Positions 1 through 39,540 of a stretch of DNA of 64,000 nucleotides are shown here, in pieces. Origin of the DNA: Membranipora membranacea (lineage: Eukaryota; Bryozoa; Gymnolaemata; Cheilostomatida; Membraniporidae); assembly GCA_914767715.1 (NCBI GenBank), contig OU612072.1, forward strand, positions 13,702,001-13,766,000, in the 5' to 3' direction. The notes under the pieces were generated by a model. That model worked only from the letters and a program-made list of their open reading frames with translations, was not told the DNA's origin and did not search any database. Position 1 is the stretch's first letter; every line of letters begins with the position of its first letter. A program made the position numbers and the translations under genes.

Positions 1-3000
1 AGGAAGTTGCACTCAGAACTATTGGTCGCCTGATTCGAGATGGAGGGTACACCACCTTCAGCAGTGGGATTCAGATCTTCTTTTGTTGATGGTTTTGACT
101 CTCCAATAGTGAAATAAACAAGGCTTCCTAAATCCTGCTCTATATCTCTGTTCCTGCCTGGATAAGAAATATCAGAGCAATTCATCCATATTACATGTGA
201 AAACATAAATTTGGATTTGTTTTTACTGTCAAAAATTGGTTGTGTATGAGATTGAAATGTGGATGCTTTATTTTACAGCTTCTAAGTAGTCTGTTCCAGT
301 TATCAGGATGTCACAGTCACATATCAGTCACCACATTTGGCTTGGTCACTGTTCATCTATACATCAGTCAAGGCTTTTATAAATTCATGTTAAGGTCATG
401 ATACCAACATCGACAGATTTGCAAATTTCGTATATCATTGGAAAGCTAATCGAACACTGATTCTGAAAATATTGATTTCAGCATGAAGTCATGTCATGGC
501 GTTGTACTATTTGGATACAGGATAATCAGCTTTGGGGAGGATTTTTTAGGACGATGTGGTGCAGAAACAATAATTCATATTGGACTCTCAAATGAATAAT
601 GTCTACAAGAAACCTTTTAAGCACCCACGAGGGCAACCCCTGGATCCCTTGGGGTTGCATCCCGTGGGAACAATAACAATATTTATGAATTGTCTTGTCT
701 TCCGTAGAATTTACTGCTCCTGAGGTATGCAGTTAGGTTCGAGTCAAATTGTGAAGGTGTGACCTTGTTGTTTTGAGTTTACTTCCTTAATTTGGTGAAT
801 GATTTTCAGATTTTTTCTCCGCAATAAACGTTGCTCCAATCCATCAGAGGAAATCACCTCAAAGAAAACATTTAGAAACATAAACTTACCCAGAATATCA
901 ATGCTTTTGATAGCTGTAAAACCCATGTGTGGCATTGGCTGCAAAACTAACTTTTCCATTTTCTTCTTCCTGTCTTCGTGGCCATCAATTACATTCACCT
1001 TTGTTAGAGAGAAGAAGAGGGGGAATTATTTGCACTGTTACTATTGATATGTCCGAAACGAAAACGAAACGAAAATGACTCGCTAAGCCAGCATGCAATT
1101 TTTCTGTTCACTTCATAGTCCCACGTTACCTAACCAAAAAATGCAATCTAGCATAAAGTCACCCCAAAATTGCCAAAAAAAGCTGAGGGCTCAGTAGTAT
1201 GACATCATCATTATCATGTGTCACATCCATTGAATTCCATATCTGGAATAGCATCATTAGCTTTCTTTTGCAAAACAAAGGGCTTGCAAAAATAGCCAGT
1301 CCCTAGTAGCAATCTAGAAATGCCCTAATCATCGACACTGTATGGCATACTGACTCTCGTGATCTGACTGGGCATGTAGATCACTGATAAACTAGGCTAT
1401 CATTACCACAAAGCAGATGTCGTAAGGCTAAGTATGCATAATGCGTGACTTGAATTTGCGCATGTGCAAGAACAATGAGTTTAGTTTGGGTTCTGATTGC
1501 AACTTTGGAAAGGAGAAATGGGATACCCCCTGTATAAACTGTCAATCAAACTCAGCTAATAATGACAAGAGAGGATAACTATTAAAAACAAATCCGCACG
1601 CTTTGGGGAGTATGTCACCAGAGCAGGTAGCCAATCAGATGGCTTCGGAATTCCGAGACTCAATTTTGCAGAGATCAGCTCATGCCCAGAGCTGAGCATG
1701 CGCAGAATGACTGTATGGGGTATAATTACTGTTTGCAATTTTGTAAACAAGACAATTTCTCAGGCTAATTATTCATGCTACTAGGGACAGCCAATCAGAT
1801 AACAGTCAGATGGGTCCCTGTCTTTAGTGTCCTAGCCGTATAACGCTATGATACTATTTCCATTCTAAGAGAAGAATCTAATTCAGTGGTCACATCTTAC
1901 TTTCCATACTTTTGCCCATCATGTGAGCAAGTTTCTGCATTGAACGCCTAATATTGAGGAATATTGGGCTCTCTAACTTATGACTTATTGACCGTAGTAG
2001 AAGTAGCATATTACGTCACAGACGTGTCTTATGGACGATTGGACATATATCATAACACATTAAACTTGTATACACAATGTTTTGTGGCAGTGGGGCTTGA
2101 ATCATCTATACAGTGGACAAAGATTCCTCCACTGGATTACGGGGTCAGATGAAATCTGGGAATCTAAAGATACCATACTAGTTTGGAGGAAATTTGAACA
2201 GCCAAAGAGTTAGCATGATTGATTTGCTTTCTTCTATTTTGTAGTTTGCTTTTTTCAATTCATCGTACACGTTCTTCAAAAGAAGTTAAGACAGCTTTTG
2301 TGTTTCTACATTGTACAATTTTCAACTCACATCGTGGCTGTCTTGAATGAATGTTTCCAGAAGCCTGATGTTGTTCGCTATTTCAGTCTGACTGCCATTT
2401 ACTTGAACCTCTGTAAACCTCTTTATTTGATCCAAAGTCTTACTTCTACTCAATGTTAGGGTGGCGACCAACTGCTGATACTTCTTCTCAATATCTCTCA
2501 GCTAAAAGATTAATTATACCAATATAATATCATTCGAAAGAGTACCATTGTTATGGATGTGCTGCCAAACGCCCTCAAGGATTAAGGTTTTTTTCAGGTT
2601 TTTATCAACTGTGGCCAAATATTTTGATTCCTCGCCATTTTGTGTCCAAAAATATTAGATATAATGTGATGAGGACTTAGTAACTCTATTGTTCATACAA
2701 CACTACCTAAGTGAGATACTTTTACACACAACCTGTAGTAATCAAAATGTTATTTTTCTATTACACTCGACCAAGGCTTTCTGCATTGATAATTACCAGT
2801 CATCATCATAATTACTGAATGTTATTCTCAACTGTATTTATTCAAGTCATTATCTCCTCCAGGCAGTACAATAGCACACTATTTAAGTTAAAATTTGGAA
2901 AAGGTGGCTTGCAAACATTGGTTTAGCTCTGGGAACTGGCGCATTTGGGGCTGTCACTTCTCGGCCTATTGGCTAAGATCAAAGTGTCATGGCCAATGGC

Positions 3001-8225: not shown

Positions 8226-8506
8226 ATAATTACAAAGGTACGGAGGTTATCGTTGGTGCGGACTCAGCAAAATCTAAAAGCAAACAAACAATGGCATCAA
8301 ATACAGATCGACCAGTTGCTCAAGGCCAGACAGCACGGCCAAGAACTCAGACTACTAGAAGATCGCAGCCCGCTTGGCTTGCCTCAGCTCTGGAAAGAAC
8401 TGAACAGGTTCAGATACCTAGTCATAAGCTTGCTGGGCAGAGGCAAGGTGCTAACGATACCCGCCCTCAGCCAGGTCGCTTATTCTAACAATCCACTACT
8501 GTCAGT

Positions 8507-9616
8507 TTGACGGACCTGTCAGCCAATTTATCAGCTTCCATTGAGCGGAATCATGGCGAGATGATGGCGGCCATGGAGAGAAATAAGGCACATACAAAAG
8601 AAATACAGGAATACATGGATAGACGGATGACTGACCTGTCATCCATAGTATATGGGTTAGCTAGTGCTGACCATCAGCATTATTCATCGCCTATACATAG
8701 AGAGTCTGACACCGTTTATCAGACTCTTGCACCTAGTTCTGCAAGTCAGCGTCCTGTGCCTGCTCCTAGGAGACGGCCATGTGAAATTCCAGTTGTTGAC
8801 CTGCCAAGAAGAGCCAGAGCTTGTAAACCACTTGGCGACTTGCCTAAGTTTGATGGTTCTGGTGATCTCACCGTATTCAAACTGTTGTTTGCTGAATGTG
8901 TGGAGCTAAACGGCTGGGAGGATGAGAAAATCATCACTCTATGGCTTAAACAGTGCCTAATTGGTGCTGCTAAAGAGTGTATCCTCTATGAGCAGGTCTC
9001 AGATTCAAGGACAGTATTTGAAAACTTAGAGAACAGATATGGTAACCATTTATTGGTGCAAAAATATACAGTGTTGCTAGATAGCCGGAAAAAGGGGCAG
9101 CATGAGTCCATCTCCGACCTAGCCAATGACATAAGGAAGATGGTAGAAGTTGTCTATCATGACTGTGACAAATTTACAAGGGAGAAAATTACCATCAGTA
9201 ATTTCATTCGCTCCTTGCCCAGTGTACATATCAAATATGAGCTGAATCGGGAGTGCCCGAAAACTCTTGAGGAGGCCGTACAGAGAGCTGCCATCCATGA
9301 TGTATGGTACGGTCATGACTCGCCCTTCAGGCGTAATCAGAGTCAAATATCTCAGCCTCCTAGATCCTCGCCAGTTGTGGCACTGTCTACAATAGAGCAA
9401 AAGAATGTATCACCTCCTATCCCAACCGCTGGTACTCAACCAAGAATAACACGACCGTGTAAACACTGTGGTGCGGCTCATATGCCATATGTGTGTCAGC
9501 CTTGTCGACACTGTGGAGCCCCCCATTTGATAACAAGTGTGAGCGCCAGGGAAACGGGTTGCCCATTCCCGGACAATCAATCAGGCAGTAATAGGGAATG
9601 GGATTCAGAAACATAA
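8507..9616 (+). CDS. Gag-like protein of the gypsy element (probably frameshifted near its end)
   Basis: Open frame of about 369 codons between the primer binding site and pol. The middle (around residues 105-260) is helical and acidic/basic like retrotransposon gag capsid (FENLENRYGNHLLVQKYTVL; KMVEVVYHDCDKF). Near the end are two zinc-knuckle-like motifs: CKHCGAAHMPYVC is complete (CX2CX3HX4C); the second, CRHCGAPH, lacks its last cysteine in this frame, while a cysteine at the right spacing lies in the -1 frame just downstream. In-frame ATGs occur at 8291 (upstream of an in-frame TAA at 8486-8488) and inside this ORF, so the true start is uncertain. Confidence 0.7.
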   Translation: MTDLSANLSASIERNHGEMMAAMERNKAHTKEIQEYMDRRMTDLSSIVYGLASADHQHYSSPIHRESDTVYQTLAPSSASQRPVPAPRRRPCEIPVVDLPRRARACKPLGDLPKFDGSGDLTVFKLLFAECVELNGWEDEKIITLWLKQCLIGAAKECILYEQVSDSRTVFENLENRYGNHLLVQKYTVLLDSRKKGQHESISDLANDIRKMVEVVYHDCDKFTREKITISNFIRSLPSVHIKYELNRECPKTLEEAVQRAAIHDVWYGHDSPFRRNQSQISQPPRSSPVVALSTIEQKNVSPPIPTAGTQPRITRPCKHCGAAHMPYVCQPCRHCGAPHLITSVSARETGCPFPDNQSGSNREWDSET

Positions 9617-11300
9617 ACTGTCTGAAAAGCCAACAAAGGAATTATTGTATCAACATGGCTATGATGTGACAAAAACTGATATGTTTGAGGTCACCTCACT
9701 GAAACCTGCTAACATTGTTAGAAGAGTTATACAGGTACTCACCTTGCCATATAGTGAACCAGCAAAGGTCACACAGTTCTGTATTCCTTGTATACATGAT
9801 ACTTCAGAGACTCGATTAGTTGATCATAGTCTTGGTACTTCAGTATCTCAGCAGAGAGCTCAGTCTAAAAAGGTAAACATTGAACCGGCCATTGCTATGG
9901 TTAGTGAGATGGGATCTAAGCTAGCAGAATTAGAATTGGAGTCTAGTAACACAGGTCCATCTCCAGGTTATGTTATACCAGATAAGATTGATTTACCTCC
10001 CACAGAGTTATTGTATCAAAAAGGCTACGAAGTGACAAAAACTGATATGTTTGAGGTCACCTCATTGAAATCTACTAATATTGTTAAAAGAGTAATACAG
10101 GTACTCACTTTGCCTTATAGTGGTCCTGCAAAGGTCACCAGATTTCATGTACCCAGTATGAACGACTCTTCCAGTAGTCCATTAGTGGATCCTGATATGG
10201 ATAACCCAGTAGTTCAGCAGCACGCTCAGTCTGACAAAGTAAACATTGAACCGGCCATTGCTATGGTTAGTGAGATGGGATCTAAGCTAGCAGAATTTGA
10301 ATTGGAGTCTAGCAACACAGGTCCATCTCCAGGTTATGTTAGACCAGATAAGATTGATTTACATGCATCAGGTTTACCTCTTGAAAAAGAGGAGACAACT
10401 CTGAACTTATTATTAGAAGTATTACCATATCAGCAATCAGATCCTTCTGATGATCAATTAATCGATGTAAGAAGAATACGTCGATCAGATTTATACTCAC
10501 CTTATGTACCGGTGGAGGTAAACGGGTACAAAACTGTGTTTTTGCTTGACACGGGTGCTACCACCTCCATATTGAGTAAAGTGCATGCTATCAAGCTAGG
10601 TATCCTAGATGGTCAGTGTGAACCTGGAAAACCGAAGGGTAAAACTGCAACTGGCAGTCCTATATCTTGTTATGGCAAGCATGAGGTGAATGTCAAGTTG
10701 GGCAGTGAAAACTTGCTAGGACTTATGGAGGTGGCTGACATTACTGAAAATGGTTTCATTGGCATGGATTTTCTGGTGGCATTTGGATGTGTACTGGACC
10801 TCAATGAAATGAACCTCAGAATGCTACAGCAATCTATACCTCTAGTGAACAGTAGTGGTGACAGGCTAGCGTGTGCATGCTACTCAGCTCGGTCAGTGAC
10901 CATTGAAGCCTACTCAGAAAGAGTTATACCTATGTATGCTCACACCACCATAGAAGGCGGAGGACTCATAGAGCCAAACTTCAGAGTAGTCGATTCGTAC
11001 AATCTAATTGCATCAAGATGCTACGTGAAAGAGTGTTTGGTACTCAGAGTTGCCAACATAACCGCAGAAGCCATCCACATTGCCCAAGACACCCCAATAG
11101 CTTTCCTCACTGATGGAAACATTATTGATATACATGAACCTGAGGTACTAGACTGGAATGGCACAACCATCCAGAATTGTGATGTCACCATTGACTCAGA
11201 ATCGGTCTTGCCAGACCATGTCAAACCCCTATTCGACACCTTACCTGAATATATCTCAGTTGACAGTAAGTCAAAGATGAGACAACTCCTCGTCAAATAG
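9617..11300 (+). CDS. Pol N-terminal part with aspartic protease, ends at in-frame amber codon
   Basis: Open frame that overlaps the end of gag (open from about 9545) in a different frame, as expected for gag-pol frameshifting. The protease has LLDTGATTSILS (around 10546-10580), the catalytic DTG of retropepsins, and a following flap-like region. Upstream of it is a 122-codon direct tandem duplication (9645-10010 and 10011-about 10370). The frame stops at TAG 11298-11300 and continues open in the same frame into reverse transcriptase, so this is one protein split by a single stop codon. Confidence 0.85.
9645..10370 (+). repeat. 366-bp in-frame tandem duplication within pol
   Basis: Two copies in the same frame, both beginning LLYQ and containing TKTDMFEVTSLK and VIQVLTLPYS. 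The 3' third (from AACATTGAACCGGCCATTGC) is almost identical between copies while the middle has diverged strongly, suggesting local gene conversion or constraint. The repeat lies between gag and protease. Confidence 0.9.
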
Positions 11301-14279
11301 CAGGATGTGTTTTCCAAGGATGCATATGACATGGGTTATTGTGATCTGGTTCCTCATGAAATCACGCTCAAACCTGGCACCCAACCAATCAGGCTTCCTC
11401 CATATAGAGTAGGATATCATGCTAACCTAGAAATAGAAAAGCATGTAGATGAACTATTGAAAAAGGGCATCATTGAACGTACAGTGTCACCATATAGTGC
11501 TCCTGTTCTACTGATAGCTAAGAAAGATGGAACCAGTCGGTTTGTCCAGGACTACCGCAAGCTAAATAAAGCAACTTATATTCCATCACAACCCCTACCA
11601 CGTATTGACGACTCACTAGAGGCACTGAGAGGTTCAACTCTTTTTAGCACATTTGACCTTTTATCTGGTTATTGGCAGTGCTCCTTAAGCCCTGACGCTA
11701 AGGAAATGGTAGCTTTTTGCACCAAAAGCGGAGTCTATACATGGCGTGTACTCGGTATGGGATTGTGTGGTGCTCCAGCCACCTTCGAAAGGTTGATGGA
11801 GAAAGTGTTACAAGGATTGCAATGGCAATCACTACTAGTGTATCTCGACGACATAATTGTCTTCAGTTCAGATGAAGAAACACATCTGACCAGGTTGGAT
11901 ACCATGTTAGAGCGGCTGCAAAAAGCCAATCTAAAAATCAAAGTGTCTAAGACACATTTACTCAAACAGGAAGTTGAGTTTTTGGGCCATATCGTTAATC
12001 AGGATGGTATTCATACAGACCCAGCCAAAGTAAAGGCAATTCAGGAAGTGTCCACTCCTACCTGCATTAAAGAGCTGAGATGTTTCCTTGGTCTCACAGG
12101 GTATTACAGGAAGTTTGTGGAGAGGTTTGCAGAGATTGCAGTCCCTCTGTTCGACCTGTTGAAAAAGAAAAACCAGTCAAGGAAACTTGCGTGGAATGAG
12201 GAATGCCAAAATGCATTCCAGACATTAAAGGACAGTTTAGCGAGTTTCACATCTCTGTCATTCCCAGACTGGACAATACCTTTCATTTTGGACACTGACT
12301 GTAGTGGTGAAGCTATGGGAGCTGTACTGGCTCAGATTGATAAGGATGGGGATGAAAAACCCATTGCTTTCTTTAGTAAAAGACTCTCAGATAGTCAAAA
12401 GAAATATCCAGTGACTAAACAGGAAATGCTAGCACTAGTGTCTGCCGTAAGACATTTCCATACATACCTGTATGGGTCAGAGTTTGTATGTCGGGTTGAC
12501 CATCACTCTCTGATATGGTTACACAATCTCAAGAATCCACAGGGAATTCTAGCCAGATGGTTGGAGGTCCTGGGGACATATAAATTCGATGTGATTCATA
12601 GACCAGGTCGCCAGCACTCTAATGCTGATGCTTTATCTCCACTCCCTTCAGCATCGCAGCAACCTCTCAGCGAGGAACCTGAGGATGAATGTGGTTTCAC
12701 AGTCCGGTCAGTTGACTTCTCCGTTGGTCTATCCACGGATGAACTAGTGCTGGCTCAAGCTGAAGATCCACATCTCATGCCTATCATTCAGAGTCTAAAA
12801 GAGAATAAAAGCATATCACATAAGAACTGCAAGCATTTACCTCGAATTACTCGATTCTATATTGGTAAAATGCCCTCAATGAAATTCCAGGACGGTGTAT
12901 TAATGATCACAACTCATCCTGAGAACGAAGATAAAATTTTGGTGCCGGAATATTACCAGGCAAAGCTGATAAAATCGTTCCATGAGATGGATCACAGTGG
13001 CATGGACAGGACGGAGTCAAGGCTCAGATTATATTATTACTGGCATGACATGCAGTCTGATATCAGATTGTTTGTTAAATCATGTACCAGTTGCCAAATG
13101 AGTAAATTGACTAGAAACCGTGTCAACCATCGGAATCTAGTAGTAGGGACCATTATGGATCAGGTGAGCCTTGATTTCATTGGTCCCCTACAACGGACAA
13201 CGAATGAAAATACATACATATTAATGGCAGTCGAGCACTTTTCTCGTTGGGCAGAGGCATATCCTCTTGCCCAACCTGATGCTGAGTCCTGTGCTAAAAG
13301 TTTATACAAGGGCCTGTTTGCCAATTTTGGCTATAGCCGAGTACTGCATTCGGACCGTGGCAGCGCCTTCATCTCTGAGCTGATGAAAGAGCTGAGCAAT
13401 CTGGGCCAGTGTAAACAAACATTCTCGGCAAGGTATCACCCAATGGGTAACTCCTATGCCGAACGAGTGATTGGGACGGTTACATCGCAGTTACGTACCT
13501 GTGTTGAGCATACCCAACTAGAGTGGGATGATCTCCTAGATACGGTAATGTCCGCCTACAGCGCCACTCCTCACTCTGCTACAGGGTTCTCCCCGAACAT
13601 GGTTATGTTAGGCAGAGAGGTGAGACTTCCAGCTGTGCTCTGTCCTCCAGGTGACAATATACCGGTAACAGATTACGTACGGAAGCTAAATGAAAAGATA
13701 AAGTATGTTTACAGCAAGTGTCTGGGGGCCCCAAACATACAAATGGAGGGTTATGACCACTTGATACACACCCCTCTAAAGGTCGGCGATAGAGTGTTGG
13801 TCAAAAAGATAAATCCCTCCAAGATGGAAACAAAATTTAGTGGACCTCACTCTATCATTAAAGTACTAGATTTTGACACCTATGTACTATCAGAGAAGGG
13901 AAAGGAGGTGATAGAGCATCACAGCAGATTGAAATTATATAGTCCTAACCCGACTGAAGTTGAACCTGACCTGGGTGACTTCATGTCTCAGCATGGGATG
14001 GACCAATCAGATGATGATCTTATCCTAGATCCAGATGATCTGGGTGATGACTTCATGACTACAACTACAACCCAAGATAGATATACTTACGACAATATGG
14101 TGTCCCCAAGGCCTATCATACAGCCTGATGGGTCAGACGATAGCATTCCTCCTGACTCAGGTCAAAACAACACTTCTCAATCACACAATACTAGTCACCC
14201 TGATGGGCCTGCTGTAAGTGTTGGAAGAAGGAGAGAAAGGAGGCTGCCTTCAAGGTATCAAGATTATTTCATGGACTAG
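11301..14279 (+). CDS. Pol: reverse transcriptase, RNase H, integrase
   Basis: Continues the frame of the upstream pol segment. Reverse transcriptase has the conserved YLDDIIVFSS (around 11838). RNase H follows (FILDTDCSGEAMGAVLAQ near 12285; later VDHHSLIW and GRQHSNADALS). Integrase has an HHCC zinc-binding part (HEMDHSGMDRT ... CTSCQMSK, about 12980-13105), catalytic Asp in LDFIGPL, Asp in LHSDRGSAF and Glu in NSYAERVIGTV, then a GPY/F-like module (KFSGPHSIIKVLD) and an acidic, low-complexity tail. No chromodomain is evident. Confidence 0.95.
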   Translation, partial: QDVFSKDAYDMGYCDLVPHEITLKPGTQPIRLPPYRVGYHANLEIEKHVDELLKKGIIERTVSPYSAPVLLIAKKDGTSRFVQDYRKLNKATYIPSQPLPRIDDSLEALRGSTLFSTFDLLSGYWQCSLSPDAKEMVAFCTKSGVYTWRVLGMGLCGAPATFERLMEKVLQGLQWQSLLVYLDDIIVFSSDEETHLTRLDTMLERLQKANLKIKVSKTHLLKQEVEFLGHIVNQDGIHTDPAKVKAIQEVSTPTCIKELRCFLGLTGYYRKFVERFAEIAVPLFDLLKKKNQSRKLAWNEECQNAFQTLKDSLASFTSLSFPDWTIPFILDTDCSGEAMGAVLAQIDKDGDEKPIAFFSKRLSDSQKKYPVTKQEMLALVSAVRHFHTYLYGSEFVCRVDHHSLIWLHNLKNPQGILARWLEVLGTYKFDVIHRPGRQHSNADALSPLPSASQQPLSEEPEDECGFTVRSVDFSVGLSTDELVLAQAEDPHLMPIIQSLKENKSISHKNCKHLPRITRFYIGKMPSMKFQDGVLMITTHPENEDKILVPEYYQAKLIKSFHEMDHSGMDRTESRLRLYYYWHDMQSDIRLFVKSCTSCQMSKLTRNRVNHRNLVVGTIMDQVSLDFIGPLQRTTNENTYILMAVEHFSRWAEAYPLAQPDAESCAKSLYKGLFANFGYSRVLHSDRGSAFISELMKELSNLGQCKQTFSARYHPMGNSYAERVIGTVTSQLRTCVEHTQLEWDDLLDTVMSAYSATPHSATGFSPNMVMLGREVRLPAVLCPPGDNIPVTDYVRKLNEKIKYVYSKCLGAPNIQMEGYDHLIHTPLKVGDRVLVKKINPSKMETKFSGPHSIIKVLDFDTYVLSEKGKEVIEHHSRLKLYSPNPTEVEPDLGDFMSQHGMDQSDDDLILDPDDLGDDFMTTTTTQDRYTYDNMVSPRPIIQPDGSDDSIPPDSGQNNTSQSHNTSHPDGPAVSVGRRRERRLPSRYQDYFMD

Positions 14280-24990: not shown

Positions 24991-25446
24991 CTAAATATAC
25001 ATATCCCTCCTTTGTACATAACCAATTATTAATAACCCAGTATACTCTTTGTGAGATGAAGTTATGAGTAGTCTCCTCTCGTCAAAAAAGCAGATAGCTA
25101 CCATGAACAATATAATTAATTCGATCGCAAATTTTAGTAACCAATGAGAAAGCTTGGCAGCTATATCCTGACCCTGATAAAAATATACTGTTTGAAGTGC
25201 ACTGTGATCTGTGGCGAGTATGAATTTGTTGCCGATCAGATACTTTGCAAATTTCTGCAATCCAAACATGATGCTGAGAGCTTCTCTGTGTGTCCGGGTG
25301 AGCTTGAATTCTGCATCTGGTAGTGTGCTACAGGCGTAGGCTATCAGTGTTTCTGAACCATATTCTACTCTACGTGAAATGACGGCCCCAGCACTGTAGG
25401 GACTTGCATCACACTCAATCACTAGCTGTTTTCTAGAGTCAAACAT
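24991..25446 (-). pseudogene. Decayed Ty3/gypsy RNase H fragment
   Basis: An open frame of about 110 meaningful residues matches the gypsy RNase H domain: LVIECDASPYSAGAVISR, YACSTLPDAEFKLTRTHREA and KFILATDHSALQTVYF, where the Asp and Glu positions are recognisable. The reverse transcriptase before it and the integrase after it are absent, and the last part of the frame no longer resembles the family. It is a different, older lineage than the element at 7.2-15.6 kb. Confidence 0.85.
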
Positions 25447-25599
25447 GGTGAGTAGTGCCTGGGCTCACAAATCTCCTTCAGATTGAAAAAAGCTTGCGTG
25501 GCACTCTTTCGCCTATGGTTGCATTTGATGGTTTGGACAACTAAGAACAATTAATGAGATGTATGAAACTTGAATTAGGTAAGAGTAAATATTTTTAGA

Positions 25600-26484: not shown

Positions 26485-26615
26485 TTAATAAAAAGAGGAA
26501 GGATTATGCTTGCGCAGGTGACTTCCTACATCATCTTCAATCTCATCAATGAAGTGTGCCATGTCTTTAGATTTTTTGTTTTTGGATAGCCTCTCAAAGA
26601 GCAGCATAAGCTCAT
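26485..26615 (-). CDS. Possible terminal coding exon of an unidentified gene
   Basis: Behind a good acceptor (CACTTCTCTGATTGGTGTAG) a phase-1 frame of 43 codons reads DELMLLFERLSKNKKSKD then MAHFIDEIEDDVGSHLRK and ends at TAA. It is amphipathic and helix-like. I find no matching upstream exon between it and the transposon at 27957, so it may be a leftover exon or chance. Confidence 0.3.
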
Positions 26616-27956
26616 CTACACCAATCAGAGAAGTGATCGTATCATATAAAACAACTCATGCAATAGTGTGCACACCACTGCACAACACACAGGCCTTGAA
26701 CCATGAATCATGCACTGTCTAGAGGCCTTCTATAGTAGGAGGTTCTAATGATCAGCCCAAGTAGCATGAAGGCACCCCCTGTGTGTAAGGAGTATCCCAT
26801 TCCTTACCTTTCATCTCTCAGTGCATATTGTCATTTCAGTTTTTTGACACAATTGTTGGGTTTAGGCCAGGGGGCTGCCAACACTTCTTCACTTCACTTC
26901 ATGATTGGCAGACCCATCCCTCTCATAGCCAAACCAGTACAGGGAGGTCTACTTTCCATTAACTCATTGGTGCAATGTCACATGCAGGGAATCAAAGCAC
27001 CCGCCCCTTGTGACACACTCCAGTACTGAAATTCACCACATCGAGAATTGTCCTCTCTACTTCCCAAGCCATTTTATTGCAACTGATAATACATTTATCT
27101 CAGTTATGAGACGAATTCTCTTGCAGGCTATTATCAAGTATTTATTGTGGCTTGCTCGCATAAAGCAAATATTCTGATGGTACTGATGAGTGAGCATCAC
27201 ACGAGAGAAACAGGATGCTATTGCTTCTCTGGTTACTGTAGACGACACTCCCATTGGCATCCTAATGAGGCATACTGCTGGTATTTAATCTGCCATACAA
27301 TTTAGCTGCAGGTGTTGCTCGACCCAATAAAATCTGTCAGAAACACATTTCAGACTTATGGCATACTCTCTGCATATTGCTGTAGCTGGTGTGCCTAAAC
27401 ACATGATCCAAAGCTGGTCTCCTTCCCACAACCAACCAGATAAAAAACCCAAATATCTAAAATATTCTAATACATGTGCACTAAGGCTGGTTCATAAGCA
27501 CTGGTAGGGGTTTTGTCGAAGGATGGCGGGTAGGTAGCGTCGGTGGTTTGGGTTCCCCTGGTTATCTGGATGAACCAGGGTGGTTTCTGTCTTCTTCAAT
27601 CTGTTGGTCGCCGCTCTAGTCTTGGCTCTCATGCCTAGACAAACAGACCCAACGGCTGCGTTTTTTTTGTTATCATTATTGAAATAATTTTTTCCATTCT
27701 CAATAAGTTATCATTGCAAAGACCTAATACACAACAAAATGTTCTCCTAAAACTTTGCTGGCTAAGCTTAAGTCTAACAGACTATTCTTTCGAGCTGACC
27801 GCAAACTTAAAAGAAATAGGCTCAATAGTATACAATATTACTCTGGCCTGGCCATAGTTTTGGCAAATTGATTACTCAATCCAGCCCACACAGTCCCAGA
27901 GGTTTTAAAAGAGAAGAAGAGAATATCATTTGTTTCATTTTGGCATGATAATTTAA

Positions 27957-28324
27957 ACCGACTGTTCACTTTTGGACAGTCGGAACTTTTCTAATTACCC
28001 AAAAAGTTTCTGTCTGCTGGGTCAATTCAGGTGAGCATCCCTTCAATAAAGCTTCAATGTATTAAAAAATCCAATAATAATAAGACTTATCTGTCCAGAG
28101 GCAAAGAGAGAGCAATCTGAAAAAGGGGTTATTTTGTCACTCTTTTGTGGAGTTGCCTCCTCTTTTGACACTATTTTGCCACAATTCCACTTTTTTGTTA
28201 TCCACTTTTGCACATGTTCCTTGTTTTTCTCTTTCTATATTATTGCACATGCGCAGTTGTATTACTGAAAAACTTCTCCTGTCAAAACAATATACTGAAA
28301 AAGTTTATTTCTGCATGCTGCTGT
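27957..28324 (+). repeat. Left terminal inverted repeat (368 bp)
   Basis: Starts ACCGACTGTTCACTTTTGG. The first 26 bases form their own hairpin (CCGACTGT ... ACAGTCGG). The inner part carries the promoter side of the ballast gene, whose ATG is 53 bp further in. Pairs with 37383-37750. Confidence 0.95.
28240..28258 (+). promoter_or_regulatory. NRF1-like motif inside TIR
   Basis: TTGCACATGCGCAGTTG resembles the NRF1 core GCGCATGCGC with one change. It lies about 120 bp upstream of the ballast-gene ATG; the mirror copy in the right repeat (about 37449-37467) stands at the same place relative to the transposase ATG. Use as promoter is inferred. Confidence 0.35.
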
Positions 28325-28376
28325 TAAATTACTCTAAACTGTTCCTATACTTCTACAATAACTTGATAAATATACA

Positions 28377-29216
28377 ATGGCAAACCGTAGGCCAACTCCT
28401 TATGCCTTTGCACCAACAAAGGATGGGAGAAAGCTTCCATGGGAACTAGGAAGACCTGGTGAGATGAACATTCCTACAGTGCCAAGTGATAGTGATTCAC
28501 ATAGCCACAGTGCTCAGTCCTCTGCAAGTCCCACTCCCCAGAGACCAGTTAGGTTTGAACAATGGTTAGCCCAACGAGAATTTGAGGAGCCAGTTGTACC
28601 AGCCCCAGCAGATGATGTAGCACCACCATCACCGCCACCCCCACAAAGGAGGAGACGCCAGCAGTGTACTTGTGGTGAATGCCCAGCAGAGATGCCAACC
28701 AGAATCGAGATGAAGTGTTGCATGGAAGAGGATTTAACTGCTACACACATTGAGGATTACAATGAGGGTGTGTGCCTCTATAACTGCGAAGAGATAAGGC
28801 ACCTCTTCAATCGCACCTCATTGAGAATTGTCTGGCTGGCTCAGAGGCAATACCTGTGCTACAGGGGTGAAGACCTGAACTTCAGGCACATGGAGACCAA
28901 AAACTTTAGGTATCACGCCTATAGGAGTTATGCACTATATATACACGGACTACTTGGAAAATTTAATAGGAAGGTTATTCCGGCTTGTTTGGTCAAACGG
29001 ATTCGGGATATGTACCCGTCAGATGGAGGATACACAGGATACATTCATGTGGACCCAAACTCGGGCGAAGTAGTACCTCATGACGAGTTAGAGCAGTTGC
29101 AAGTAGAACTTGCCGGTGAGTTGGTGACCCTGTTATGCGGACCTTTTGACCATCATGCAGGCATTAGCATATTCTGTGATGTATTCTACAATGATATGCT
29201 ATTGAAGATTATGTGA
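28377..29216 (+). CDS. P2X7 intracellular (ballast) domain-like protein, 279 aa, transposon cargo
   Basis: A single-exon frame from ATG to TGA. Residues 1-95 are low complexity, rich in Pro, Ser and Arg (PPPPQRRRRQQC). From about residue 96 a cysteine/histidine-rich domain follows: CTCGEC, CC, C in GVCLYNCEE, then FRYHAYRSYALYIHG and KVIPACLVKRIRDMYP, GGYTGY. This matches the C-terminal cytoplasmic domain of vertebrate P2X7 receptors, which binds zinc and guanine nucleotide in the known structure, in cysteine spacing and in the R-x-x-Y-R-Y and IP-x-C-x-x-x-x-IR-x-x-x-P pattern. There is no channel part and no membrane helix. About 50 acidic residues follow. Its role for the transposon is unknown. 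Confidence 0.85.
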   Translation: MANRRPTPYAFAPTKDGRKLPWELGRPGEMNIPTVPSDSDSHSHSAQSSASPTPQRPVRFEQWLAQREFEEPVVPAPADDVAPPSPPPPQRRRRQQCTCGECPAEMPTRIEMKCCMEEDLTATHIEDYNEGVCLYNCEEIRHLFNRTSLRIVWLAQRQYLCYRGEDLNFRHMETKNFRYHAYRSYALYIHGLLGKFNRKVIPACLVKRIRDMYPSDGGYTGYIHVDPNSGEVVPHDELEQLQVELAGELVTLLCGPFDHHAGISIFCDVFYNDMLLKIM

Positions 29217-30943
29217 AATATAAACTACCGAGTGTAAGACTGCCACTCTTACGAGTTTAAGACTGTCACTCTTACTGCCTTGTTTTCATTACCATCAGTT
29301 ATCAGTATCAATCATGAAAACACAAGCTATCAAGTCTTTGCTATCTCACTTATACTTGCCATAAATTTTATGAAACAAGACCAGCCTTGCACAAACTTTG
29401 TGATATTAAAAGAATTATGTAGGCGCTATTTGAGTGAGATGGTGAAATTTCTGTGTCACCTAGAGGTATAAAGCATGAGTAGTGTATGTTGACATGACAA
29501 ATACAGCTGATGACTGTCATCCTCCATACAAAAATGTAACTTCATTGTCTGTGGCAGGATGACTAAAGTCGTAATATTGACATATTATTATGGCGAAACA
29601 TTTTATCAATTGGCTTCAACTGCAAACCAACTGATGATTGTATTTATTTCCGATTCTTGTATTGCAGATATGGAATAATCTAATCACACATGTATGATAC
29701 GTAAGCTGGTGGAAATTCAACAAGGTAAGCATCCTCATGATTGTGCAACTTGACAGAAATTGTATGTAGGGCTAACCGCTCCCCCCCCCCTCAACCTCCT
29801 AAAGTATGAAACATGTATGAAAAAACATGACAAGCATCTAGCCCATCAAGCCAAAAATCATTCAGCAAGTTTTGTTGAAATGTTTACCTCAATGCAAAGC
29901 ATCATCATTGTGGTACGAATAGTGTTATACCATAGCAATAAAGAAGAGTACTCATGCTGCAGTGACCAATAGAGTCATAGACATATCACAGGTACATGAA
30001 CTCTGTTGTTTTGTGATGATAATGTTAGGTTTCCCCACAATGAATATCAATCTTTTAGCTGAGGTATTGCATAGGTTAATTGAAACTTTGGAAAATTGGC
30101 TGCTGAAATCTGGCTATATACTTTTGACCGCATCCCAACTGCAACCACCCTTTGTTGAATTTTGGAATGGTGTTGACAAAATATAACAATTGTGTCTCTG
30201 CTCACTTTACAGCAATCATATACAGTTCAACCCGGATACAGAAATATTCATACTCAACGAGGTCTACTCGTACAACTAATACACATGACATCACCTGGCG
30301 AGATCAAAGACTGATATCATCTCGAACCTCAGGAGGATGGTACCCATATACACTTATAACTGGCAAATTTGCTCTTGAGGTCGAGTTCATTGGTGTAATT
30401 TATAGACTGATCAGTAATACTACAATCCACAAGCACTATTCATTATTCAAAACTATTTTTGACTGGAACATGTATTTTCTATCGTGTGTAGTGTCATACA
30501 GTTTTATAAATAATTCTTATACTCAAGATAACGCATAAAAAAACAAATTGAGTGGTCAAATTATATAAATATCACTAATTCTCCACTGAGACAGCACAGC
30601 GGGGAATTTTGTTCTTGTATTGCACAATAGATGGCTATGTATGAAACCGAAATATTTTAGTATTTTAAAAGCACACGTGATACGCAGCTATATATGAAAC
30701 AATAATTTTATATTTCTTGTTACTATTCTATGTACACTAAGTAATAAATGGCTATACATACACAGCTATATTATGAAATAATAACTTCAGCTATCCAGTA
30801 ATAAGATTCAGAATGACTATAGTCAACTATACTTGTACGCCAACACAATTCTTGGAACACGCTTAGACTTATATTATAAGAAAGATATAATCGCCTATTA
30901 GTCTGTGAATGAGTAAAACTTTATGTCTAGAGTATAATTGTTT
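29217..30943. other. Internal spacer of the transposon between the two convergent genes
   Basis: Holds the 3' ends of both genes. Open frames such as 30152-30538 (+) show no recognised domain, and no third gene can be supported. A C-run lies at about 29782-29791. Confidence 0.4.
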
Positions 30944-33900
30944 TTAAAATCGCCTATATTTCAAATGATCCTTTACGGCAGTATCAAAATCAGGTTTTTC
31001 GACCTCTTTACTGAGACGAGCTCCACGATTCTGGAAACAACAAAAACAACAAGTTCAATATATTATTATTATCATTTTGTGGCAAAGCTCCAGTGAAATG
31101 TTTCAGCATAGAGTTCAGATCATATGTTATCATTGACAATGCATTGTGGGATATCATATGTTGAGTAGCTGACATGTAAACATTTTTCACTCCTAAAACA
31201 GACATTATGAAGCTCAGTGTGGGCATTTCATAGCATTTACAGGTTAGGTATGAGGATAGTTCATTCATATACTTACCGGTAGCATAGGGTTGGGTGGTGT
31301 AGTGTGGACAGCGTCAGCCAGGATATCTTTTAGTAGGTAAGATCTGAATTTGTACGTCTTAGGCTCATAAACAGCTCTTAAACGCCAGCTTTTTGATGAT
31401 TTCGTCCAAACCATTCGTAGTTTAGGAGTAATACCATCTTGTTCTGAAAATATATGAAATAGAATTTTTTGAGTTTATGAAAGACAAATCAGATCATGAC
31501 CCAATAAACCAATTCAATTTTTTTGATCAACCAATTGATAGAAATCATGGGGACCCTACAATACTGGCCCCAATCCATGTCCATAACCTCAAAAAGTTCT
31601 GCAATGCTGAGTTTCCGAAAGTGAAATATTTAATTAGCCACCCTTCAGAAATTGTCCTCCCACTCACGTCTATAGAGATAGGGGAATATGACTCATTTTC
31701 TATGTAACTGTCCTCCCACGTCAAATTGAATTTCATAGGCAGATGTTAATACATTACAGCACTACTTCTCACCTAGTACGGGTCTACGAGAGCAGTTCTC
31801 GTTGTGATCCATCACGGCTAGCTGAATTCTGGCATTGTAGCTCGAGGGGTCATAATCAACACGCTTGCTCACGTAAGCTAGGAACATAGAGTGCAGCACT
31901 TCCAGTCGGCCAGTGTGCACACCATGAGTACATAGGCTCAGCTGATCCATGAAAGCCTTCGATCGTAGGTGCTCTACTAGAACTTTATGGGCAGGATCTC
32001 CGGCCTGTAAAAACTGCACCTGTCTCTCCTCATTTCTACAAAAGCGAATAGTAGTAATTAGTAGTAATAGTGATAAGATAATACCATAAAATCTAGGTGA
32101 TGAAACTAAACAAAGGTTTGGCTGAGTGTTAGACATGAGAAATCCTATCACAATATTCTGTGAGAGATGACTTACTCTGTGATTGCTTCGTGTCGACATT
32201 CTTTAAACTTCTCATGTCCAGGGAAAAAATCATGCCGGTTTACTGTGTGATGGCCCATACTGAGAACCATCTCTCGGAGAAGCTGCGGGTCTTCATCACA
32301 ACTGGCAGCGCTCCACCAAACATGGTTGGTTAGATGCTGTAGCCACGCGAGCAGTGGTTTTTGTAACTACAAGCAAATTTTATATCGTTATGAACTGAGG
32401 CAATGACAACAATCGCAAATGCAATGGGAAGTTGCTTTATACATCTCAAGTAAGTAACTCTTGTGTTATCTATCATATCAACGATGGGTGTGATGAGAAC
32501 AAAATTGTAATTTGAAATTAGGCTTATGGCCCTGTCAGTCAATTATTAACATGTACAACCTATTACAAGGACGAAGTTTAGAAAAATGTTAGGGGAGGCA
32601 AAACTCAGAGGCGAATCCAAAGCAACACCAGTAGGGGTGGTGTAAGCTCCCCTGCAAGCAATTTAAAGCTTATAATTAGCAAATGGAAATCTCCGAGGAG
32701 CTGATTCTGACATGGATTATCCAATTATTGTGTTTTTAGGCCACTGTATTTAGCATTCTAGGGGAGGCAGTGCCTCCCTGCCTCCCCTAAAACTACGGGC
32801 CTGCATTATTTATTTGACGATTCTCAAGCCAACTTGTGAATGTGCTTTAATTGAATACTCACCACAGATTTCGCCTTCTTGGCAAGGTTTTTGGCAAGAT
32901 TTTTGCAGATGTGCCAAATATCCAAACCGTGCTTGACAGCATCTTGTAGTCTCATGAATGCCCGTATCGAGGTGTTTCCATCTGTAGTTATGGAACGGAC
33001 ATTGAAAATAGATGTAGCTGCTTCAAAGACAGCAACAAATGCTTCTTTCTCGCTTGCCACTGCTGATGTACGCGTAGCTGTCTCCAAAGTGAGATTATGG
33101 GTGACTTTACCACTATCCTGAAGGAATAAAAATATACATGTATGGTTGCTAACTTTATATGAACTTGTGCATAATATTTGATATTTGCGCAGCTCAAGCA
33201 AGGCTGAAGACAGAAGAAGAAACCATGACATATGTTGTGGATGTATTGGTCACATTTGCTGAGACATTACATTTCTCTAAACTGAACTCTGGCTATAAAT
33301 ATCACAGTCCGTACATCAATATGAATGATATAAGATAAATTATAACACCCATAAAAACTATCAAAACTATAATCTCAGAGTTATTTATGGTGTATGATAG
33401 CAGTAACGCCTGAAAATGAACCAGCCCACAATTATTTCGTTTCAGAATTGGGGGTGTGAATAATTAGGCAACATTGTTCTAAGAGTAACATTTTTTCACT
33501 TACTGCATCCATAAGTGTGTATGTACAATAACGTGCAGAGTGACCCGGACTGTCATAGCGTCCATCTCCGGCTAGATTTACAGGCTCACCTAGACAAGTA
33601 AGTTAATAAAAGTTGATCGAGTGGCATGTAGTATGTAGTTGCACCATACCTTACATACAAATAATAATGTTGTTTGCGACTGTCATGACAAACAACAAGT
33701 AATGGCCAGCTTGTGCCAGATGACTTAATGTTAGCTAGAACTAAATTTTGGCTAGCAGAGTTGGGAGGCTATATCAAGTCACGAGAGTGGGTAAATGATA
33801 TTTAGCAATGAAATTTATCCAACTAAAACAGTGTGAAATCGAAAATTTTTTCCCATGCCAAGACGAATCACAAAGTATACACGTCAGCTCAGCATTCATC

Positions 33901-36900
33901 GTATGACGGGTTTCACATTGAGACGGCGGGCTTTTAAGACGAATAATTTGGTGAAAAAAAGTAACATGAAGTTTATGTTTTTGATGCGGGGTAGGTTCTC
34001 ACCCTTTGCTATTATCTCCTGTCTTGCTTGTTGGAGAGACAGTTGACAGTGTCTCTGTATCTGGGGCATCACCAGCGTTCTTTGATATTTGTAAAATGAA
34101 GTCCTCCCAACAAACTGCAAGTCTAATAGCCGACACCATTTCTCAATTCCACTGAACATCTGTCCCCTGTGAAATTCAGATAAAGTATGAAATGAGAGCG
34201 TCTACCAGTGAATCACATCAACTATCTTATTTAAGTCAACTCAAAGTGGAGACAATACCAAAATTAGGCAATTTACTGTTTAAATACAGCAGCTCTCTGG
34301 AGTTGTAATGAGTTATAAGTTGTAGATGCAAGTCGGACATGGTGATGACAGGACAGAGTAGAAAAAAACTGGATAACTACGAGCTGAGAACAGAAAGACA
34401 GACCTAACTCTTTTGTCACAGAAGAGATGGTGATATATCCTAAACTTACGTTAGAAACATTGTGGCAATCAATTCCACATTCCCTCTTGCTTTCTGGCCT
34501 AGCTTGGGTTGGCTCCGCCACACATGATTTCTTGAACAGCTGACACACTTGGATCTCAGGATCAGCAGAGAGCCCTTAGTCTCCCCTATTTTCACATTGC
34601 CCAGTCTCTCACCACATTTACAGCGTATCTACAATGTATGGAAAAGTCAATTTCCGCACGACTAAAGATGTATGTGCCTTACATAATTCAATTTTGAAAC
34701 TCAAACACAAAAATTATCATTATACTGTGAAGTGGTAGTGGAGGAGTCACGATACAGGTCTGAAACAGAACTATTGGAGACCATGTTGTATAGCAACATC
34801 AGTATAAGAGAGTGGAACATATATGCCGGTTTTTCATTTTCATCCAAGCTTCCTACCTGTTTGTACAGTTCAAGAAGAGAAGTCTGGTAAACAATATGTT
34901 TTCTTGACTCCCGGACACTAGCAACTTCCTCTTCGCTGTCACTGTCAGAGCTTATGTCGATCCCACTGATGCCACTCATATTGAGCGTGTGATTCAGATA
35001 ATAGTCCTCTGGGTCCTGATCTACAAAAATTAACAGTTGATGTTGGGGAAATGAACTCTACGTAGACAACCCGTTATATACTGATTTGAACAAAATTCAA
35101 GTTTACTCTGTCCAAGTTGACTTAGTAGTAGAAGTAGTAGTAGGCTACTAGTTTACAGTAGTAAAGTACAAGTGTAATTGTTGATTTTAAAGGTCAACAT
35201 GGATCGGAGTTAACATAATCAAATACAGAATAAGACAGGTCATAAGGAGGATATTAGACTTATTATAAAAAACTAGTAAGAATTCTGCAGATGTAATTTG
35301 CAATCGTGCAGAGTCTGGAAAATTTTTGTCAACTTGTGTTGAGACAGTCTTCTTACCATCAGGGTTATCAGAGAGGTCATCTATCACAGGATCTGGGTGT
35401 ATGAGAGAGATCTCTTCCTCCATGGTCTGCACATCTTCACCACCTGAATCAATTAACAGTACACCCCTTTGAATAACCATGTTGGATATCATTTACAGAA
35501 TTGAATAGTGAAATGCACCTGTACCATAGTATAGGTACGGTTACGAGTGCTGCAGTGGTAGAGCAAGTAAAGTGACTCTAGTACATGTGTACCACATAAC
35601 ACTACTTCTTACATCGCAATAGTCAGTAAGGATCAAATTATCTTACCTTCATTGCACTCATCAGCTTCACCTCCGATGCTTGGCTGGAGAATTCCACCAG
35701 CAGTGACATCGTCATTATCACCATCATAGGACCAAATGCGAGTCATTGTTGGTGAAGGACAAGGCCGCACTGGGGAAACTCCGGGAGATAACGAAAGAAT
35801 AGGAGAAGATGAAGATGCCACAGTGGTTGTAGGAGTAGTGGTTGTTGTCATGGTGACACTCTGATGAGTTGTTATCAGCGCTGCCGCTGTAGTAATGCTC
35901 TGGTGGGTTGTAGTTGTTTGTCTGGCAGCTGAGGTCACATGCAGTGGAGAAGTTGGTGGGTCTCTTTCTGCCTCAATAGGTGGAGCTGTAGCAGTGGCTG
36001 CTGGGAAATTTCTTTTTAACTGTGTTCGTGGTAAATATGGTGTGTAGACACCAGGTGGTAGTCTTGGTGTGTAAACTCTCTTCAATTCTGGTGTCTTTAG
36101 TAACAGATTCAGCGGGTTTAGCTTGGACATTTTGTTGTCACCAGTGGGATGTGGCATGTACTTAACCAAGATAGAAGCAGGCGATGCCTTTTTTGCCAAG
36201 ACTTCCTGAACTTCAGCTGGTTGCGGCGATGTTATCTATAAAAAAAAAAGAGTTGGTACATGTAGCCAGTCTTCCTAAAAAATTACAAGCTGATATTGCA
36301 ACCATAATCAGCAAATTGTAAATGCGTTGCAACGTTACATCTGATTCGCAATGTGCAATGTTCACCAGCAATCATCGTCTTGCAGCGTTAAGACATGATA
36401 TTTATACCAATTAATCAATAAAAAAACAATAGATTGTCTAAAATTTTTGTGTTTCCATATTTTGCTGTGAGCACACAACGTCTGGTTTACATGACAACTG
36501 ATAATGAATTATTTAAAATTGGATCAAGCACTGATTGATATGAAAATTTGGCTGTAAACAACTTTCGCTGGTGTGACAGAATAACCCTGATGGACGCATT
36601 CCAATTGGACATGCTAAGTTTGAAAATCTTCGGCCTTACAGTCATAATATTGGATCGATCGCATGAAATATAATTATAGGATGTACAAATATATATTGTA
36701 TTCTGAGAAAAAGACAGCTGGAGGCCTTCTAATTTTAAAGATAATAAGATGGTGAGCAAATTGATGAAGGGCAAAGGCCTTACCTATTGTGAATGGTAGC
36801 ATTCGATATGCTTTTCAGGTTACATATCATCATACCACCTCATACCATGTCATTTCATAGTTGCAGTACCCCCTTAGTTAGGATCTCACCAAAATTAAAC

Positions 36901-37342
36901 ACACAATGGCTACATGCCAGAATTCAGATTTGACTACAGTCTCAAAAATGCCTTACCCCACGAGGCACTCGACATTTATACCAACTAGGTAGTATTCGAG
37001 TGCTCTAAAATATTTGAGGTAAGAATCCTTCCTTACCTTTCTCTTTTCCTTTGGTCTTGGTAAGTTCTGAGTAGGCGTGGTCCCTGGTTTCTTCAGCCTT
37101 CTCCTCAACACTGTGTTGTCCTTCTCATCTAGGGTTTCAGTATATTGCTCCCTGGAGAAATGGTGATGGCAGACCTTGTAACTTTTATACAGACCTGACA
37201 TATAACTGTCATAGTGAATATCACTCCTACGAGCCAAATTGAAAATATCCTGCCTTTCACTGTAAGCAATTGAAAAGTATGAGACTCCTAGTCCTTCAAG
37301 TCTATGACTGCTACTCTTGCATCCATTCATGATACATCTCAT
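30944..37342 (-). CDS. THAP-domain DDE transposase (Kolobok-like), 12 exons, about 845 aa
   Basis: Exons: 37342-37037, 36235-35647, 35443-35357, 35020-34857, 34628-34450, 34166-34003, 33589-33504, 33117-32863, 32366-32176, 32035-31773, 31443-31278, 31030-30944. All junctions are GT-AG, phases agree, and no stop interrupts the frame (exon 11 could be off by one base in my count). Residues 1-90 are a THAP zinc finger (C at 3 and 8, CHHH near 58). Exon 2 is a Thr/Pro/Ser-rich linker. Exon 5 has a zinc-ribbon-like CKC/CVSC and HVWRSQP. Catalytic candidates are Asp in GDGRYDSPGHSARY (about 505-509), Asp in ITTDGNTSIR (about 571) and Glu in HTGRLEVLHS (about 718). LAVMDHNEN follows near 750. These blocks are shared by Kolobok-type transposases. 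Confidence 0.85.
32566..32803 (-). mobile_element. MITE nested in an intron of the transposase gene
   Basis: Relative of the element at 56888-57085 in opposite orientation: ends AAGTTTAGAAAAATGTTAGG and CCTCCCCTAAAACTACGGGC, with internal matches (TTAGGCCACT, CTGATTCTG region, GGCAGTGCCTCCC). It lies in the intron between exons 8 and 9. Flanking duplication is unclear (TATTA left, CATTA right). Confidence 0.7.
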
Positions 37343-37382
37343 ATTGAATTAGTAGTGTGAGAAGCAGATATGTAATAAATTG

Positions 37383-37750
37383 ACAGCAGCATGCAGAAAT
37401 AAACTTTTTCAGTATATTGTTTTGACAGGAGAAGTTTTTCAGTATTACAACTGCGCATGTGCAATAATATAGAAAGAGAAAAACAAGGAACATGTGCAAA
37501 AGTGGATAACAAAAAAGTGGAATTGTGGCAAAATAGTGTCAAAAGAGGAGGCAACTCCACAAAAGAGTGACAAAATAACCCCTTTTTCAGATTGCTCTCT
37601 CTTTGCCTCTGGACAGATAAGTCTTATTATTATTGGATTTTTTAATACATTGAAGCTTTATTGAAGGGATGCTCACCTGAATTGACCCAGCAGACTGAAA
37701 CTTTTTGGGTAATTAGAAAAGTTCCGACTGTCCAAAAGTGAACAGTCGGT
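37383..37750 (-). repeat. Right terminal inverted repeat (368 bp)
   Basis: Reverse complement of 27957-28324 with only a few differences. The transposase ATG is 41 bp inside its inner end, so both genes start from the inner edge of a repeat copy. Confidence 0.95.
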
Positions 37751-37754
37751 TTAA

Positions 37755-39540
37755 ATTTAAGTTGCATAGGTGTGTAACAGCTTAACCTTCCCAGGGTGCA
37801 CAGCATATAGAGCAGATAACTCTGTGCACGGTAGATTGAATGTATGATATTCACCACATCTTGCTAGACTGCCAGCCATACCACATGTACAAAGAGTGGA
37901 TATAGATTTCAGGCCATACGGAGGGGGAGAGCATACATCTGAGGCTGCTAGGGGTTTTAATCAATTTTGGAAGGTCGACAATTAAACAGGGACCGATATC
38001 ACATGCTACATCCATTGGCCCACAGTAGTTATCAATGCAACTCAGTGCCGCACTATATATCTGTGAGAAACGGATCGTTTCCGTGCACACAGCACGGTGT
38101 GGTTGGGTTGCTTCGAGTTTACACTTTTCATGTGTGGTGAACTTTCCACTTCAAACGAGAGTTGTATTGTATATGTATTTAAATGTGATTGCAATATATG
38201 TGGCATTATGAACACCGATTAAAAAATCATTCCTATGGGGCTCTATTATAATTGCTCAAGTGACAAGCCTGTCACAACAGCTACTCACTTAGTAAGGCAA
38301 GCCTTATTATGAGGTGAATGACTATTTCCTTCCCCCTTACACTACATAATATTACTAATTCAAACTTTTGTTTTAACAAGCTGGTGTATTTAAGGTTCAG
38401 CCCCGCTAAAACTTCTGTTAGATACTCTGCTTGGTGCTCAATCCTTCAGATATAAGGGCAGTAGGGAGCAACTGCCTCCACTAGAAAGCAAAATCAGACA
38501 CTGTTATGTATTACAGTTTTGTTATTATTTGTTAGTAGTTTCACTTTGTAAAGTGAAAGTCTTTTATGTTATCTATTACTTGATTGGTATTTCATTATTG
38601 TAAAGGCTCTTTTTATTGGCCTATTTTAATCATTCGTCTGCATCCTTTTTGTTAGTTGTATATTAGATGTTAAACAAAGAAGTTGCTTTGTTTAATAGGT
38701 TAAGAATAAATAAACTTGTTAGCTTAGGGTTTTAAAGCTAGCACAACCAAATAGATGTCCAATCCATGTACAGCTCAGACACTAACGTTGGATAATATCT
38801 TGTCTGAAGGGGCTTGCTGAGGTAACTCAAATCAGCCTGGATCCAGGGCTCAGGCACCCATAGAACTCATTGGTTAATCCGAGTCATCATTACTGCATCC
38901 CTTTGAACAAGACCGTTGTGCTTGATGCAAACAATGTAGTGAATGAGAAAAACCTAGTCTTTTGGAAGGGAGGTGGAGAAAAAGCCCTACTCACATGACA
39001 TCTTTTATAAAAAAAAATGTAAAGCTACAAAAACGTGGCAGGCGCTTGCAACCTATTTCTTTTAGTTGTGAATCATTCTTCACCTGCATGGTTGGCATAC
39101 CAATCCACCATCACTTTCTCAAACCTGGTAATAATGGCGAAACCAGACTACTCAAACGGCATCACATATGAATCGTTTGCGAATAATAACCACTCATTCC
39201 TAGCAACCAAAACTACGGTAACATCCTGTTTTTATCAAGTGATTGTCATTCCACACTACCATCGGATTACTTGTTTTGTGCAAAGCGCAAAACAAAATTT
39301 TGATTGTCGAGCGAATTGACAAATAGGTTAGACTTATCAAAAACAACTGGTAACTCTTTATTTTGGCTGTTGTAAACGTGTGAAGGTGCTCACTAGCAAT
39401 TTTATGTTACATGCCACTTGCACCTCAAAAGCTCTCAGAAGAACAGATATTATGCTTGACTGTGAGTCAACTAAAAAGAAATAGGACCAGCACCTGCGAG
39501 TTTTTGTATTATCAATGCAAGTAATGTAACCATGTACTTA
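37755..39540. other. Non-coding region
   Basis: No gene recognised. The 79-codon minus-strand frame at 37851-38090 has no known motif. 38812-38875 belongs to the same short dispersed repeat as 22125-22190. Confidence 0.35.

Follow-up and report, generated by a model that had tools for sequence, protein, structure and literature searches.

A Kol0-type Kolobok transposon in Membranipora membranacea and the genome-wide pairing of its ballast-domain gene, KolX, with a THAP transposase

The genome of the bryozoan Membranipora membranacea carries, at positions 27957-37750 of a 64,000-nucleotide stretch of contig OU612072.1 (contig positions 13,702,001 to 13,766,000; this whole stretch is the window below), a TTAA-flanked DNA element in which a gene for a THAP-domain transposase faces a gene for KolX, a protein with the ballast domain of the P2X7 receptor. 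We regard its identity as a Kol0-type Kolobok transposon with KolX as near certain, and we consider it very likely that the element is young and, as it appears, complete. That a ballast domain is carried on a DNA transposon was the central claim of a preliminary description of this DNA, and the copies of the family, with TTAA and KolX, bear it out. The idea itself is not new, since Kojima and Bao (2022) reported both a ballast fold like that of P2X7 in KolX of the Kol0 lineage (present in vertebrates, annelids, cnidarians, and sponges) and an origin of P2X7 in which a P2X4-like gene was joined to KolX (PMC9587614). The further suggestion that such transposons were the source and vehicle of the domain is already in print. 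The window element adds a good example to a published kind and is not a discovery; what our analysis contributes is that, among Kolobok families of one genome that have diverged widely, the two genes remain paired and convergent.

A single inverted-repeat pair was detected within positions 26500-39500, with arms of 382 nt at 27950-28331 and 37376-37757 that are 99% complementary. Flank and target site account for the outermost 7 bases of either arm, which leaves 27957-37750 as the element proper. The preliminary description had reported TTAA-flanked terminal inverted repeats (TIRs) of 368 bp; the repeats and the TTAA were found as described, and the length is corrected to 375 bp. The two TIRs match at 371 of 375 positions, and the 4 mismatches suggest a young insertion. 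The boundary features are as follows.

27953-27956, unstranded: left target-site duplication, TTAA, read directly
27957-28331, + strand: left TIR, 375 bp, starting ACCGACTG, from the inverted-repeat search and genome matches; its inner end lies 46 bp ahead of the KolX ATG
37376-37750, - strand: right TIR; its inner end lies 34 bp ahead of the transposase ATG
37751-37754, unstranded: right target-site duplication, TTAA, read directly

A search of the genome with the joined flanks matched only the window's own two flanks, and no empty site was shown. The very end of the transposon holds a palindrome of 11 pairs (CCGACTG ... CAGTCGG, 26 bp, 27958-27983, with its mirrored place in the right TIR).

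The element contains two convergent genes, each of which begins just inside one TIR. The first is the KolX-like gene.

28377-29216, + strand: KolX-like gene, a single open frame of 279 residues with an N-terminal PTPYAFAPTK motif and a C-terminal ballast domain
28617-29042, + strand: ballast domain, residues 81-222, with zinc cysteines C97, C99, C102, C114, C115, C133, and C204, and with R178 and R210 corresponding to P2X7 R546 and R578

The profile check on which the ballast assignment hung came out in its favor: the protein matches the Pfam family P2RX7_C (PF20478) with an E value of 1.8e-9 and 38.2 bits, above the curated cut-off of 23.5, and a phmmer search of PDB sequences returned P2X7 chains (best E value, 8.7e-5). 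Five relatives are 45 to 62% identical to it. All seven zinc cysteines are common to the window KolX and to rat and human P2X7 in the alignment, as are the residues aligned with P2X7 R546, Y550, R578, P570, and P582; the positions of H547 and K583 differ. We placed P2X7 numbering on this alignment by counting back from what we take to be the human C-terminus; the residue numbers follow PMC7016195. AlphaFold2 models of the window KolX were weak, at a mean predicted local distance difference test score of 36.5 with 6 alignment rows and 52.5 with 34. The 14 best PDB matches of the 34-row model were all P2X7 (best E value, 0.04), a result that is not independent of P2X7 because many of the rows are P2X7 or P2X7-like. 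Pfam gave no nucleic-acid-binding family above its cut-off for KolX; a sub-threshold match was to zf-Paramyx-P, a viral zinc-binding domain (E value, 0.023; 14.6 bits versus a cut-off of 25), and a scan of viral contigs found no relative of KolX.

The second gene encodes the transposase. The preliminary description had placed a THAP transposase of Kolobok type beside the ballast gene, and a 12-exon model holds the THAP domain, the DDE residues, and an H2CH finger that such an enzyme calls for.

30944-37342, - strand: transposase gene model, 12 exons, 845 residues; 11 of 11 introns GT-AG, frames open
37342-37037, 36235-35647, 35443-35357, 35020-34857, 34628-34450, 34166-34003, - strand: exons 1-6, sequence-based model
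33589-33504, 33117-32863, 32366-32176, 32035-31773, 31443-31277, 31030-30944, - strand: exons 7-12, sequence-based model
37037-37342, - strand: THAP exon (Pfam)
33504-33589, - strand: exon of the first catalytic D (GDGRYDSPGHSARYC, D505), from model and alignment
32863-33117, - strand: second catalytic D (D571) and DxxH motif (D591-H594), from model and alignment
32176-32366, - strand: putative H2CH zinc finger (H650, H655, C667, H669), from invariant alignment columns
31773-32035, - strand: exon of the catalytic E (HTGRLEV, E719), from the model

The THAP domain was detected in Pfam both in the scan of open reading frames (E value, 4.8e-7) and in the 845-residue model (1.2e-5), and the model matches Pfam Mutator with an E value of 1.3e-11. 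Seven relatives align at 27 to 35% identity over residues 385-845. Two of them are uncharacterised proteins of named species, presumably one frog and one fish. D505, D571, and D591-I-W593-H594 align with all seven, the D, W, and H positions being invariant, and one relative ends before E719; H650, H655, C667, and H669 are invariant in all 8 sequences, the window model included. The spacing from D571 to E719 is 148 residues, part of which is the zinc-finger region.

These features place the element within known systems. The TTAA target site, the D-D-DxxH-E residues, the THAP domain, and the H2CH finger are those of the Kolobok superfamily, and KolX, with its P2RX7_C match and the seven cysteines of P2X7, is the second gene that marks Kol0. 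The published Kol0 type (Kolobok0; Kolobok-1_XT) encodes the same two proteins, a DDD/E transposase and a KolX with similarity to the P2X7 ballast, and shares with the window element the TTAA duplications, the DxxH motif, and a zinc finger between DxxH and the last E; its termini are RR, whereas ours are AC with a 375-bp TIR, and the likeness is one of features, not of tree placement (PMC9587614). XKol of Xenopus has a similar THAP domain, DDE residues, H2CH finger, and TTAA, its termini being AG, and the available account of it includes no KolX (PMC6004289). The vertebrate P2X7 ballast domain (ZCD) has in common with the window KolX the seven zinc cysteines, R546, Y550, R578, P570, and F/Y581-P582, but is the tail of an ATP-gated channel, whereas the window KolX stands free and has an N-terminal motif of its own (PMC7016195, PMC9859053). 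Ballast domains occur across animals mostly as short proteins, as reported by Rump et al. (2020), in whose available text no word begins with "transpos" (PMC7016195); among them, zebrafish Nanor, alike by description only, was read by Kojima and Bao as a domesticated KolX (PMC9587614, PMC7016195). Two other assignments were rejected. KolobokP elements end in long direct repeats and encode a His-Me finger nuclease; no direct repeats were detected within 26500-39500 at the settings used, and none of 9 open reading frames scanned gave a nuclease above cut-off, a sub-threshold match to RE_BanI (E value, 0.059) being the restriction-enzyme match among them. In the case of piggyBac, whose DDE transposase has its own Pfam model, the window transposase passed the Pfam cut-off for Mutator and THAP only, with AAR2 below threshold.

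The preliminary description had proposed looking for other copies of the TIR and asking whether both genes are kept together. The species' own genome (339 Mb) holds 42 matches to the window TIR, the window's two included, from which we read 9 two-ended copies (window included) and 6 single-ended ones; the matches left unread are mostly weaker, for example on contigs C1, C3, and C6 and in four short inverted pairs at C5:26.69-27.79 Mb. TTAA stands on both sides of 8 of the 9 two-ended copies, the ninth having TTAT/TTAA, and at the end read in all 6 single-ended copies, and the termini after TTAA are 5'-AC in the copies read. The junction of TIR and KolX seen in the window recurs on several chromosomes. 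Only the window element and L009 (C8:25571262-25579165) retain the transposase core, both with an open KolX; the other seven two-ended copies hold 5' pieces of KolX, six of them together with a remnant of the last transposase exon. KolX sequence is therefore kept in all nine, and none has the transposase core without KolX, an outcome that favors the preliminary description. L009 is, small gaps aside, the window element minus element positions 2980-4921, a loss that takes exons 9-12 and the end of exon 8. Its flanks form a perfect 105-bp inverted duplication that includes the TTAA (L009:396-500 and 8405-8509; C8:25571157-25571261 and 25579166-25579270), as if one flank had been duplicated and inverted at insertion or repair. 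Four copies (L010, L011, L012, and one on C10) share breakpoints at which the left end, to about position 814, is joined to the inverted left half, giving non-autonomous elements (L010, L011, L012, and L013+L014) with TIR and KolX start at both termini. Inverted pairs of KolX-start matches in other families (e.g., C5:5439572+ / 5441424-) hint that such double-KolX-end copies arise repeatedly.

The association extends well beyond this family. A KolX search of the genome gave 106 matches, clustered into 94 loci, and a search with the transposase core gave 110 matches (110 of 301 candidates scored), clustered into 53 loci. KolX was detected within 8 kb of 31 of the 53 transposase loci (window included), and in all 31 the two genes are convergent; random placement of the transposase loci on the 11 match-bearing contigs gave a mean of 0.216 and a maximum of 2 over 500 trials. 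Copies within one family are not independent events in this count. Seen from the other side, 32 of the 94 KolX loci are accompanied by one of these transposase matches; some of the others are the shortened derivatives or lie next to transposases too diverged for the query. Seven diverged KolX loci picked by hand (L036, L037, L038, L059, L060, L061, and L062), for which chiefly the side downstream of KolX was fetched, each carry, on the opposite strand, a Kolobok-like transposase that is convergent with KolX. Eight Kolobok transposase loci lie on one strand at C1:36092133-36660568, spaced about 60 to 130 kb apart; the one read (L070) is fragmentary, with no KolX detected.

The KolX loci differ in what they conserve. 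Apart from the window, we scored the sites at 25 distinct loci of the genome, in 26 rows because L031 and L036 are the same place. All seven zinc cysteines are present in 14 loci, five or six in 4 (two of which stop short of C204), and three or fewer in 7 (one of which, L048, has a frame too short for all sites). R178 is kept in 24 of the 25 loci, and R210, which 23 of them cover, is kept in 20. In the cysteine-poor class, which includes L038, L050, L052, L057, L046, L047, and L048, R178, Y182, and R210 are kept in 7 of 7. In these alignments the arginine pair of the guanosine site appears to be more constant than the zinc cysteines are. The P2RX7_C score is 45.7 bits for the KolX of L037, whose element is described below, and that of the cysteine-poor L038 KolX, 23.5 bits, only just equals the cut-off. 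At both cysteine-poor loci that were read, L038 and L059 (the place of L046), KolX stands beside a Kolobok transposase; in the available text of PMC9587614, cysteine-poor relatives are mentioned only in piggyBac families. An N-terminal YxFxP motif, mostly PYAFxP, is present in the window (28377-28406), L009, P0001-P0004, L036, L037, L038, L046, L050, and L057, cysteine-poor KolX starts included, and is missing from P0005. We know of no name for it. Literature searches, with subscription journals mostly outside their reach, did not find in print this motif, cysteine-poor KolX that keeps both arginines beside a Kolobok transposase, or non-autonomous copies with a KolX end at both termini.

Several observations weigh against the assignment or against a role for KolX in the element. 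The AC termini depart from the RR that two papers state for Kolobok, whose RR...YY hallmark is set against piggyBac (PMC9587614, PMC6004289), and the window element is therefore filed by its transposase, its TTAA, and its KolX; the related L037 element, with an equal two-gene layout, is TTAA-flanked and begins AGGG. The exon joins of the transposase are a model from sequence alone. Between the window and L009, the two intact KolX copies differ at 8 nonsynonymous and 0 synonymous codons, which, contrary to expectation, gives no sign of purifying selection over this short time. Finally, the search detected no KolX within 8 kb of 22 of the 53 transposase loci, and the two of these that were read, L069 and L070, are both fragmentary, with no TTAA-bounded TIR pair in 9.9 kb. 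The nonsynonymous-only differences, like the loss of most of KolX from derivatives, are what one might expect of a ballast gene picked up once as host cargo with no role in the element. However, convergent pairing at 31 of 53 transposase loci and 7 of 7 diverged KolX loci, including some whose transposases bear only a distant resemblance, and the correspondence of KolX to the published Kol0 protein (PMC9587614) stand against such an origin, which is largely refuted because the pairing recurs and which we judge very improbable. The same recurrence argues against two unrelated neighbors, a host ballast gene lying by chance inside flanking repeats. KolX starts 46 bp inward of the TIR, the junction is found on several chromosomes, and repeated copies have TTAA on both sides; nothing found speaks for this explanation, and we give it almost no credence.

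KolX probably serves transposition. The near-identical TIRs would hold promoters from which both proteins are made together; the transposase would bind the ends through its THAP domain and then cut and join; and KolX would be an accessory or regulatory subunit, working in trans by way of its zinc-stabilised fold. A promoter scan of the TIR with a prokaryotic model, uninformative for an animal promoter, gave one promoter-like match, at chance level. Alternatively, KolX could regulate the host response or expression of the element, for example as a repressor or an anti-silencing factor that binds nucleic acid via its zinc module, rather than serve as a cofactor. Its status as a separate gene with its own TIR-proximal start, its cysteine-rich module with the zf-Paramyx-P resemblance, and the 22 transposase loci at which it was not detected are consistent with this possibility. 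Yet no nucleic-acid-binding family reached the cut-off, and at the two cysteine-poor loci read, KolX has kept its place next to a Kolobok transposase, which argues that the zinc module is not the indispensable part; we consider such a regulator a minority possibility, about one chance in four.

A more specific version of service to transposition, that KolX acts by binding guanine nucleotide, is unlikely. The P element transposase, which shares THAP and DDE with the window enzyme, needs guanosine triphosphate (GTP), a need said to set it apart from all other transposases; the GTP-binding domain interrupts its RNase H fold between D303 and E531, 228 residues apart, as against 148 between D571 and E719 in the window (PMC7776569). 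Any nucleotide site in the window element would, unlike that of the P element, sit in a separate protein. The P2X7 ballast binds guanosine diphosphate (GDP) and GTP, to an obscure purpose (PMC9859053). A separate, KolX-borne nucleotide site would reconcile the GTP need of the P element, the shorter D-to-E spacing, and the binding of GDP and GTP by P2X7. The persistence of R178 and R210 in cysteine-poor KolX, and a D-to-E spacing that leaves less room for a P-type insertion, fit nucleotide binding and do not prove it. That KolX would be a guanine-nucleotide-binding subunit, provided in trans for a THAP transposase that lacks the P-type insertion, is likewise unlikely.

Elsewhere in the window, neither a transposase match nor a KolX match turned up in six stretches, each 6.5 to 9.9 kb long. 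Long terminal repeat retrotransposon-like open frames with protease, reverse transcriptase, RNase H, and integrase domains lie at 8489-14279 (+ strand), and a short open frame at 24991-25464 (- strand) resembles, by eye, the RNase H part of another retroelement.

The whole-genome data lend independent support to the view, already published, of the P2X7 ballast domain as a transposon protein. In the cysteine-poor KolX class the zinc cage and the arginine pair come apart, which would make the nucleotide site the part to test. If the nucleotide proposal is true, the unexplained GDP/GTP site in the P2X7 tail would be what remains of a cofactor of transposition, and should KolX turn out to assist transposition in a nucleotide-dependent way, evolution would offer an explanation for the puzzling GDP site of a major drug target.

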